A DNA stretch of 35,263 bases from Lachnospiraceae bacterium UBA6403. Its GTDB lineage: Bacteria; Bacillota; Clostridia; Lachnospirales; Lachnospiraceae. The stretch covers positions 1 through 35,263 of the forward strand of contig DJPV01000033.1 in the NCBI GenBank assembly GCA_002437435.1, read 5' to 3'. Numbering within the stretch: position 1 is the first letter of the stretch; each line of letters starts with the position of its first letter. Below the pieces are notes generated by a model, which was not told the origin of the DNA, did not search any database, and saw only the letters and a program-made list of their open reading frames with translations. This document shows positions 11,270 through 32,762 of this stretch, one piece after another. The translations under genes were made by a program, and so were the position numbers.

Positions 11270-11362
11270 ATTCCTGAAAATTAAAAATTGACCGATCAAT
11301 GCCCGATAGGTGGTGTTACATTAACGTGCGCCGGTTTCTATTCGGTTCGCACACCTATTTTA

Positions 11363-11560
11363 TGCCTGCTGTATATTAATAGTCTATCCTGCTGCAAACA
11401 AGCTGCGCTTTCTACTCGGTGTATATGTCTGATCCGCTCATGCTCCTGTGCAACTCGCCCTTTGGGCTCAAACAAGCACCCGCATTCGCTGACAATATAC
11501 ACCTCCTGACGAAATGCTCGCTATGTTGCTGCAGAATAGACTATTGATATACAGCAGGCA
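11363..11560 (+). repeat. Nested-hairpin element, copy A, with conserved 106-nt core (11409-11514)
   Basis: Outer arms 11363-11396 and 11527-11560 are 34 nt each and pair at 31 to 32 positions. The core reads TTTCTACTCG, P1 GTGTATATGTC paired with GACAATATACAC, P2, P3 GTGC with GCAC, the loop AACTC, P4 GCCC with GGGC, the loop TCAAACA, and a closing CTCCTGACGAAA. The core runs in the plus direction. It fills the gap between the lipoprotein gene and the convergent carbohydrate-binding gene. A further copy of TTTCTATTCG lies outside the core at 11335-11344, inside a small GTGCG/CGCAC hairpin. Confidence 0.75.
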
Positions 11561-17649: not shown

Positions 17650-17671
17650 TCAAAACCCTCCTTGTCTATGA

Positions 17672-18029
17672 GCTGCATTTTCGTATACCACGGGGTAAGT
17701 ATTGGAGTATATTCACACGGTTCATTTTCTATTCGATTTGCCCAGGTTTATGTTGGCTGTATCCCCATGATTGATTCTGGTGCAAACAAGTTGCGCTTTC
17801 TATTCGGTGTATATGCCTGATTTGCTCATGCTCCGGTGCTAACTCGCCCTATGGGCTCAAACAAGCACTCGCATTCGCTGGCAATATACACCTCATCACG
17901 AAATGCTCACAATGTTGCAACAGAATCGATCAGTGGTATACAGCCACATAAAACTGTGCAAAATCCATAAAGAAAATGAAAGGTGTGAATGTAATCCGAT
18001 TCATTTTTCGTAGTATACGAAAATGCAGC
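17672..18029 (+). repeat. Nested-hairpin element, copy C, with conserved 107-nt core (17797-17903)
   Basis: A 17-bp perfect outer stem joins 17672-17688 with 18013-18029. Inside it, ATTCACAC 17711-17718 pairs with GTGTGAAT 17983-17990, and TTCATTTTCT 17721-17730 pairs with AGAAAATGAA 17971-17980. Further in is an imperfect helix around GGCTGTAT. The core has TTTCTATTCG, P1 GTGTATATGCC with GGCAATATACAC, P2, P3 GTGC with GCAC, loops TAACTC and TCAAACA, P4 GCCC with GGGC, and CTCATCACGAAA. The core reads in the plus direction, antisense to the response regulator leader. Confidence 0.78.
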
Positions 18030-18088
18030 CCAATAATTGCTTATTGTATTTTTTACAACAAAAGTTTCTATCTATAAAATAACAGCCA

Positions 18089-21189: not shown

Positions 21190-22050
21190 TTATATATTTA
21201 TTTTATTTTGCTGGAGCACACCTTGGATTGTTGAATATGTTTTTTCTCTAATCTTTTCATTTTCAGCAAAAGTTTCAAAGTTACTAACGGCTGCATCTAC
21301 TTCGGCAATAATATTTTCACACTTTTTCTTTTTTATTCCCATTATATCTCCGGATTTTAATAAGTCCGTTAAGTTAATGTTATTAGTTTTATTATTAATT
21401 GTCATTTGGTGGGCTCCGAGCCACTTGTTTGTTGGGTTATATGAAAATGTAATATCATATGCAGGGGATAGATGCCATTCGCCGGTTCGATTCATTAAAA
21501 AGGAAATATTTTTAACGTGATCATCTTGATTCACAGCAATACAATTAAATACCATACGTCTGTAAAATTGCTCAATTTCTTTTGCAGGCAAACCTAATTC
21601 CCGCATATATTGTGCTGCCATTTCATAGCTGCATAGCGCAGGTTTCTTGTAACTTATGTGAGCCAGAGCACCTAATGATTGCATGTGTATTTTTTTTCCG
21701 TTGATACGATCGAAACGCTTGGTCATAAAATGATTTTCACCATTATTTGAATATATTCTGCAGTCATTCATTTCTATTCCAGCGGCCAATGCCATTTTAT
21801 AGTATGCATATTCTATTAGAGTGTATTCAGGTGTATCTTCCAACCCGTGGTCACCATTTTTAGATACATGATCAAATTTTATAAGCCAGTAATCAAAATC
21901 GGGGTCAAGGTTCAGTTGACCAGATCGAATCTCATTTGTTTTCTTATTCCATGCGATTAAAGCTTTTGCCCTAGCTCCTCCGGCGGAACTGCCAACCTGA
22001 ACTAATTGTGTATATGTGAGTTTTTCCTCAGTATTTAGAGAGAGAGAAGC
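21190..22050 (-). pseudogene. HipA kinase core, separated from its N-terminal part by a TGA
   Basis: This region holds the HipA-like serine/threonine kinase core. Just after the TGA at 22051-22053 the same frame reads ASLSLNTEEKLTYTQLVQVG, then SSAGGARAKALIAW (Gly-rich nucleotide loop). Later come FMTKRFDR, VNQDDHVKNISFLM (catalytic loop HD-type with Asn) and LSPAYDITFSY (metal-binding DITF). The first in-frame start codon after the stop is TTG at 21843, which would omit the Gly-rich loop. As it stands the kinase is probably not made complete. An ATG at the stop (ATGA) could open the kinase frame if the adjacent TC tract were two bases longer. Confidence 0.7.
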
Positions 22051-22488
22051 TCATTGATTTAAAATATCGGAGACAAATTTCACCATTTCTGTCACATTAA
22101 TATTCTCGTTGATGTCTTTTATATCAGTGCTGGCTGGGACATATTCAAGTGCGCCCATTCCTCGCTTTCCGGTGTAGCATAGCCGATCAATGGCAGTAAA
22201 ATCATTTAGTGATCTTCCCTGTGTTGCCAGCCATTGTTCAATAACCTTGTTACCAAAATCGTCTGGTAATGAATCAGCCACCAAGCCGGGCAGACCGAAA
22301 AATGGTTCTCCAGAAAGAAGTGGGAATTCATAAACAACATTATTTAATGGCATTTTAATGTGAGATACTTCGATGGCGCTTTTTAAAAAATCCTGATCGT
22401 ATTCAAACGAAGCGTAGGGCTTGTCTAGTTCTTGATGAATAATTCCAATACGTGTTCCCCATAAAAATATTTCTGCTGTTGTATTCAT
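22051..22488 (-). CDS. HipA N-terminal subdomain protein (HipS-like or truncated HipA)
   Basis: These 145 residues match the N-subdomain of HipA: IFLWGTRIGIIHQELDKPYA, the characteristic GLPGLVADSLPDDFGNKVI, and LNDFTAIDRLCYTGKRGMGAL. The frame stops at TGA 22051-22053 exactly in the linker before the kinase core, and the kinase core continues in the same frame. It starts four bases inside the upstream regulator gene (ATGA overlap). The gene order regulator, N-subdomain, kinase is that of the tripartite HipBST systems, where HipS is a separate small protein. A simple nonsense mutation in a standard hipA is equally possible. Confidence 0.75.
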   Translation of the reverse strand: MNTTAEIFLWGTRIGIIHQELDKPYASFEYDQDFLKSAIEVSHIKMPLNNVVYEFPLLSGEPFFGLPGLVADSLPDDFGNKVIEQWLATQGRSLNDFTAIDRLCYTGKRGMGALEYVPASTDIKDINENINVTEMVKFVSDILNQ

Positions 22489-22906: not shown

Positions 22907-23126
22907 AAAAAACCCCGCTTGCTTTTAGTTCTATCGTAAGCAGGAATTGAAACGCGTTGCATTTTCTATTCGATTTGCACGCCTATTTGTCAGCAGTCGC
23001 CCAAACTCGCCTTATCAGGCTCAAACATGGGCTTGGTGCTGACAGCTAGTGCAAATCTCATAACGAAAGTTCCACTGATGTTTCAATTCCGACCTACGAT
23101 AGAGCTGGATGCAGGCGGGGGTTTTT
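22907..23126 (+). repeat. Nested-hairpin element, copy E, doubling as prs terminator; core 22963-23068
   Basis: The outermost stem AAAAACCCCGC/GCGGGGGTTTTT gives U-tracts on both strands. Next come TCTATCGTA 22930-22938 with TACGATAGA 23095-23103, then GGAATTGAAAC 22943-22953 with GTTTCAATTCC 23080-23090. The core has TTTCTATTCG, P1 ATTTGCAC with GTGCAAAT, P2 TGTCAGCA with TGCTGACA, P3 GCCC with GGGC, loops AAACTC and TCAAACA, P4 GCCT with AGGC, and CTCATAACGAAA. It lies directly after the prs stop, so on the minus strand it would terminate prs. Confidence 0.8.
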
Positions 23127-32542: not shown

Positions 32543-32561
32543 ATTATAATAAAGGTGGAAT

Positions 32562-32762
32562 ATAACTGCAACCAGCTAATTATATATTGACATTACCAAA
32601 GATTTCGTAATGAGATGCATAGTGCCAGTAAATACGAGTGCCTGTTTGAGTCCGAAGGACGAGTTGGCACAGGAGTATTTACGAATCAGGCATATGCAGC
32701 GAATAGAAATCGACGTAAGTCAATATATAATTAGCTGGTTGCAGTTATAATTCCCCTTTTTT
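32562..32762 (-). repeat. Nested-hairpin element, copy F, with perfect 31-bp arms; core 32603-32709
   Basis: Arms 32561-32591 and 32718-32748 (approximate ends) are exact inverted copies over 31 bp, starting TATAACTGCAACC and ending in its complement. On the plus strand the distal arm runs into TTCCCC and T8, so it can terminate the transporter gene. The core lies on the minus strand: TTTCTATTCG, P1 TGCATATGCC with GGCACTATGCA, P2 GTAAATAC with GTATTTAC, P3 GTGC with GCAC, loops CAACTC and TCAAACA, P4 GTCC with GGAC, then CTCATTACGAAA. Confidence 0.82.

Follow-up and report, generated by a model that had tools for sequence, protein, structure and literature searches.

Palindromes with a shared tip in a Lachnospiraceae genome: probable copies of a gene-less foldback MITE

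What is a nested fold of 106 to 107 nucleotides doing in four separate gaps between genes, with loops that are nearly fixed and helices that vary and yet stay paired? The question is raised by a window of 35,263 nucleotides, the whole stretch of DNA analyzed here, from Lachnospiraceae bacterium UBA6403 (contig DJPV01000033.1, positions 1 to 35,263). An earlier note on this window had placed cores of the fold at 11409-11514, 17797-17903 and 22963-23068 on the forward strand and at 32603-32709 on the reverse strand (here copies A, B, C and D), and these positions and strands are all correct. The four are a true family with fixed loops and compensated helices, and helices P2, P3 and P4 vary as that note described; in P1 one detail needs amending, as the inner-end pairing GCC/GGC belongs to the 17.8-kb and 32.6-kb copies, and the 22.9-kb copy, to which it had been assigned, has no GGC there. 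A gapped pattern derived from the loops, ACTCN{10,16}CTCAAACAN{16,46}CTCNTNACGAAA, matches the window exactly four times, at the four copies, and is found in none of 100 shuffles.

What had been overlooked is that every one of the four cores sits inside a longer palindrome. Copy A occupies 11363..11560 on the + strand, with 35-nt arms that are 91% complementary, and its tip, AACTCGCCCTTTGGGCTCAAACA (11452..11474, +), presents the loop AAA on the reverse strand. Copy B (17669..18032, +) is two-layered, with outer arms at 17669-17730/17971-18032 and inner arms at 17735-17785/17915-17965, and its tip, AACTCGCCCTATGGGCTCAAACA (17841..17863, +), has the reverse-strand loop ATA. Copy C (22907..23126, +) has 47-nt arms that are 81% complementary, outer ends AAAAACCCCGC/GCGGGGGTTTTT that look like a bidirectional terminator, and a tip, AACTCGCCTTATCAGGCTCAAACA (23004..23027, +), with the reverse-strand loop GATA, of the type GNNA. 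Copy D (32548..32762, -) has 44-nt arms, 91% complementary, and a tip, AACTCGTCCTTCGGACTCAAACA (32643..32665, -), with the reverse-strand loop GAA, of the type GNA. RNA folding of cores plus flanks against shuffles gave z-scores of -9.6, -7.7, -11.0 and -13.5 for A to D, respectively. One copy lies in a convergent gap, one in a divergent gap and two in tandem gaps; no target duplication was seen by eye at any of the four. The earlier note could match the fold to no family, and the window holds no Rfam match at gathering scores (whole window, 4227 families); copy C searched alone (E<=5) gave a best score of 18.1 bits where the cut-off is 180.

Two details of the window may be recorded here. The loop sequence TTTCTATTCG of the core is found again at 11335-11344, just outside copy A, and at 17726-17735, within copy B's outer left arm, as though modules recurred along the length of the hairpin. 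A HipA gene at 21190-22488, which adjoins an HTH gene, reads as two pieces (HipA N-terminal domain and HipA_C) and looks interrupted.

We think, with rather more belief than doubt, that each of the four features is a copy of a foldback MITE devoid of genes, its arms matched mainly by template switching and its loops and tip kept by selection. In such an element the two arms would pair to give one long hairpin, and a transposase acting in trans would recognize the outer ends, which vary between genomes. Replication inside the hairpin would copy one arm from the other, so that changes appear on both sides at once, and selection would maintain the unpaired loops, above all the tip. The tip itself would be a very stable, compact mini-hairpin of single-stranded DNA with tandem G.A pairs at its flanks; its likeliest role is that of an asymmetric end, nuclease-resistant and/or recognized by a protein, through which a palindrome of 200 bp could persist in the chromosome and be handled there.

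How far does the family extend? An exact-core scan of the genome collection gave four stretches, two of them chance matches and two true ones in loci of Lachnospiraceae MAGs (L026 and L027), which have the same loops as the window copies and very different stems. A first covariance model was built from 11 copies, with eight candidates scored per genome. This search of the Lachnospiraceae, a check that the earlier note had suggested, found further copies. G001 is the genome of one of those two MAGs, and of 397 genomes sampled from its family 26 gave matches, the two that fed the model among them. In some of its low-scoring matches (L057, L058) the lower loops are kept and the tip is absent. A second model, built from 65 aligned matches, found the element in 14 of 391 genomes of the class sample. 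Of 61 relatives, 8 gave matches, and G017 has no fewer than 54 copies. Among the loci listed, those of the 11 class-sample genomes that remain when G001, G029 and G262 are set apart share the apex AACTCGC-N-GCTCARACA, one of them with a single base changed, and this tip is the best-conserved part of the element.

Searched for by itself, the tip occurs in 63 of 391 sampled Clostridia genomes (at most 72 times, in G523, and 59 times in G513), where a reversed control gave five matches in the whole sample. In the class of Selenomonas sp. AE3005, 31 of 120 genomes have it (three control matches), and in that of Pseudomonas lactis 26 of 114 do; in the latter class the control gave nine matches, so that single matches there are partly chance. 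Genomes and copies are related by descent, and none of these counts are independent. The Selenomonas genome that gave one of the two chance exact-core matches holds 14 tips at other places. Are the copies elsewhere palindromes as well? When the palindrome score was compared with 200 shuffles of one flank, all shuffles were exceeded by 26 of 30 Clostridia-sample loci, by 28 of 29 copies of G523, G590 and G726 and by 13 of 14 copies of the Selenomonas class. In the Pseudomonas class the figures were 4 of 8 copies in one set and 16 of 34 fetched copies in another (G990, 10/11; G1030, 1/16; G952, G975, G1020 and G1025 together, 5/7); that class has clear cases, chiefly in G990, plus weaker ones. 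None of the 29 copies in the stretches fetched from G523, G590 and G726 overlaps a 100-codon open reading frame. The elements are short, multicopy, intergenic and devoid of a coding gene, as expected of a MITE, although in the GC-rich Pseudomonas-class genomes 19 of 34 copies overlap mechanical open reading frames. The suggestion of a modular repeat comparable to BOX elements proved apt, the copies being of the BOX/MITE kind.

On viral contigs a loose pattern gave 25 matches, which by eye were judged chance. The 19-mer AACTCGCTNCGCTCARACA was found in 87 viral stretches, and 22 of the 79 tested (among L380-L459) exceed all 100 shuffles as palindromes; a large group with the 19-mer (L418, L429, L432 and relatives) reads as the coding sequence NSLRSNKPLEA, a coincidence that inflates motif counts. 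Against plasmids and phages, blastn found no match for five of six element queries; of the sixth, from G1030, the outer segment alone found matches, on 12 plasmids (of Burkholderia, Pasteurella, Aeromonas and Pseudoalteromonas). Our search of the open-access literature, which takes in few subscription journals, found no published description of the tip among the papers listed.

Evidence of mobility comes from genome G726, whose full-length copies are 198-201 bp long and bear the inverted ends GGGTGCATGT and ATATGCACCC. Exact 9-bp target duplications flank 9 of the 12 full-length copies, and the other three show matches of 8 of 9, 7 of 9 and a shifted 8 bp; the tip was recognized by script in 10 of the 12. 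The end motif occurs at 63 places (control, 0), and the script paired ends in 18 cases, several of the longer pairings not being elements; 10 have exact duplications, one of them a 91-bp form that has no tip. Twelve further end-bearing loci have no right end in range, and nine of these are remnants of 37 bp with AATAT at the join, in some cases with base changes; three have exact target duplications by eye. Such remnants are expected if replication skips the hairpin; they could instead be a mobile short form. No transposase with these ends was recognized at the 30 of the 63 end-motif places that were read for the end motifs alone, over at most 900 bp inward in search of a right end. In G298, six of eight compared copies, which lie at different loci, are 94.1-99.6% identical over 243-337 bp, and the other two match those six at 84-88%. 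In G243, 2 of the 11 elements listed with both ends (L208 and L210) have duplications of 10 and 9 bp, respectively, by eye. Terminal inverted repeats with target-site duplication, as in MITEs, are seen in G726 and, by eye, in these two G243 elements.

The ends themselves vary by genome: TATA-CTTTTTGAAAC in G298, GACAAACGC in G243, GGGTTTGTAA in G523 and GGGTGCATGT in G726. The tip is thus common to elements with different ends, which were probably moved by different transposases. Could the enzyme instead read the hairpin directly? The elements might be folded single-stranded substrates for recombination, comparable to the REP hairpins of Y1 transposases or to integron attC sites, in which an enzyme recognizes the loops of one strand; the strand-asymmetric loops that are kept as stems vary, a covariation of the DNA type, and one tip on different outer ends would all be in keeping with this. 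The exact 9-bp duplications and terminal inverted repeats of G726 point to a DDE transposase, however, and we consider such a substrate unlikely.

A different kind of evidence is contained in the stems, where counts of pairs bear on the distinction between DNA and RNA. With more copies the covariation noted in the window became stronger (50 cells changed on both sides, against an average of 16.5 in shuffles), although further pair types, at 24, were below nearly all shuffles. That part of the earlier note stands; covariation by itself as a sign of selection on an RNA fold is not supported. Among 39 non-redundant copies, mismatches isolated inside helices, with three matched pairs on either side, comprise 10 G.U and 14 A.C. 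Whole-arm alignments of 41 copies, which reach beyond the helices into loops and flanks and in which one sequence (L037) is probably not a member, contain 3610 Watson-Crick pairs, 99 G.U and 98 A.C, and P1-P4 on the model alignment contain 23 of each. Over all modelled pairs G.U does exceed A.C, 78 to 28, which on its face is contrary to a DNA reading; much of the excess lies in two nearly fixed positions beside loops. Within one genome group, copies that are 85-93% identical differ by 101 double Watson-Crick changes, 4 changes to G.U, 21 to A.C and 35 other single mismatches, and copies that are at least 93% identical have these four classes about even (5, 4, 5 and 5). Double changes almost free of G.U intermediates are predicted by template switching inside a hairpin, a process that has been argued (PMC8794818) to create and to maintain or fix RNA hairpins. 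As template switching yields paired changes without selection, covariation alone cannot establish selection on an RNA, and the stem changes argue for DNA copying inside the hairpin rather than for RNA selection. The loops, by contrast, look selected, since correction between arms should erase them unless something keeps them.

A structured RNA, either an sRNA or a 3'-UTR element that spread as a repeat and whose loops are RNA motifs, nonetheless has something to recommend it: the covariation is strong, the loops are fixed, the position is intergenic, tandem G.A steps as found on the reverse strand are used by RNA too, and there is the G.U excess over all modelled pairs. Yet the G.U intermediates that mark RNA-type covariation are scarce in P1-P4, among mismatches inside helices and between close copies, the four-nucleotide loops avoid the RNA type GNRA, orientation to the window genes is not fixed and Rfam holds no match. 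We gave up this reading on the G.U and A.C counts in the arms together with the double changes, and we now see little chance of its being right; a kink-turn in the reverse-strand tip was likewise dropped, as it has no RNA signature.

If a foldback MITE with template-switched arms is the better account, there is still the question of whether core and arms belong together. The core with its tip might itself be a small mobile piece of DNA that inserts at the centre of palindromes already present, the outer arms being its target. A 154-bp core in G001 is up to 96% identical between copies whose adjoining arms are almost wholly different and still pair, hairpins that have the core and hairpins that lack it (in G243 as shorter palindromes) are bounded by the same ends in G298 and in G243, and sister species carry different hairpins at one tRNA locus. 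Against this, loci of G726 and of G298 share core and arms together, and forms devoid of the core can be deletions, so that an insert of this kind seems to us a rather poor prospect. A search for an empty site, in 21 genomes for one G001 locus and then between G001 and G002 loci, found none; the sister species carried either the same hairpin or another one. Least credible are giant bidirectional transcription terminators or insulators kept for that use, for although terminator-like stems with runs of T form the ends of copies C and D, copies A and B have no such ends by eye, orientation and gap type vary, and the asymmetric tip goes unexplained.

What, then, might a foldback MITE gain from its tip? 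Its reverse-strand sequence is TGTTTGAGC-loop-GCGAGTTT, typically TGTTT-GA-GC-GNA(or GNNA)-GC-GA-GTTT, with GA steps on both sides in the setting Py-GA-Pu, which favors sheared tandem G.A pairs in DNA. Counted per genome and loop type over the listed places in 43 genomes, reverse-strand triloops are GNA in 62 of 93 types and ANA in 26, and tetraloops are GNNA in 33 of 36 types, with GNRA accounting for just 5 of the 33. PMC4686876 describes extraordinarily stable DNA mini-hairpins as a GNA or GNNA loop closed by at least two G-C pairs, and reports that GCGAAGC melts at 78 C and is nuclease-resistant. Most tip types have this form, the exceptions being 31 triloop and 3 tetraloop types; the ANA loops break the GNA rule, and copies A and B, two of the four in the window, have loops of this kind. 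A DNA energy model gave short tips 0 kcal/mol and no stable fold, so the predicted stability derives from that source.

In E. coli, according to PMC4245961, a perfect palindrome of 460 bp is lethal even to recombination-proficient cells if they express SbcCD, and interrupted palindromes are lethal only to recombination-deficient cells. An asymmetric, compact tip would suit a setting of this kind. We go further only tentatively, and with more doubt than conviction: a single ssDNA tip, GA-GC-GNA-GC-GA, may have been adopted, across three or more bacterial classes, by numerous mobile palindromes unrelated to one another, either as a cap against hairpin nucleases (e.g. SbcCD) or as a mark read by a conserved host protein. 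If so, there would be a shared structural code for tolerated chromosomal palindromes, one that searches for RNA and protein families would miss.

On this reading the elements belong to a known kind, the foldback MITE, and it is the conserved DNA tip, crossing element families and classes, that is unusual. Like ERIC, Bcr1, BOX, RUP and NEMIS, they are intergenic, gene-less, multicopy repeats that can fold; each of those families is found in one species or a few related ones, whereas a tip of 19-25 nt is common here to elements with different ends across bacterial classes. PMC2267715 arranges such repeat families by species and gives ERIC as predicted to fold into one long stem-loop. The d(GCGNAGC) mini-hairpins of Hirao and Yoshizawa, as cited in PMC4686876, likewise have a GNA/GNNA loop on two G-C pairs. 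Those are short oligonucleotides, whereas the present tip sits on a mobile palindrome with conserved GA flanks, its stability is predicted, and about a quarter of its triloop types are ANA. REP/RAYT hairpins, with a GTAG foot and an adjacent Y1 transposase, and integron attC sites, with RYYYAAC/GTTRRRY boxes in a cassette array, are strand-asymmetric hairpins whose unpaired bases are conserved and whose stem sequence is free. The present elements have all three features in common with them, but here it is the tip and not the foot that is most conserved, and G726 has inverted ends and 9-bp duplications.

Strong covariation in a fold is usually read as proof of a functional RNA. These close relatives suggest that template switching in the DNA of mobile palindromes can yield near-perfect covariation, for which there is a simple diagnostic: G.U pairs are not more frequent than A.C, and double changes occur without intermediates. 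The tip shared across classes leads in turn to a testable question, namely how bacteria keep long palindromes alive.

A few related hairpins deserve mention. G001 has a second palindromic family (L106:980-1430 and L105:1610-1925), with the core CTGTCGTTNCGTCNAGAATAACTAATGAAAAT and similarly terminator-like ends, and at the tRNA locus it occupies the place of the window-type element in the sister species G002. G298 has a hairpin family of 325-362 bp (L177, L179, L185, L188, L197 and L200) with the same ends as its tip-bearing element, fixed loops, exchanged stems and apparently two apical hairpins. In G1030 (L467-L474) tips often occur as pairs pointing towards each other at a distance of about 174 bp. 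Finally, a variant tip at L119, L120, L123, L124 and L064 reads AACGCGC followed by GCTTGAA or GCTTGGA, with several linked changes.
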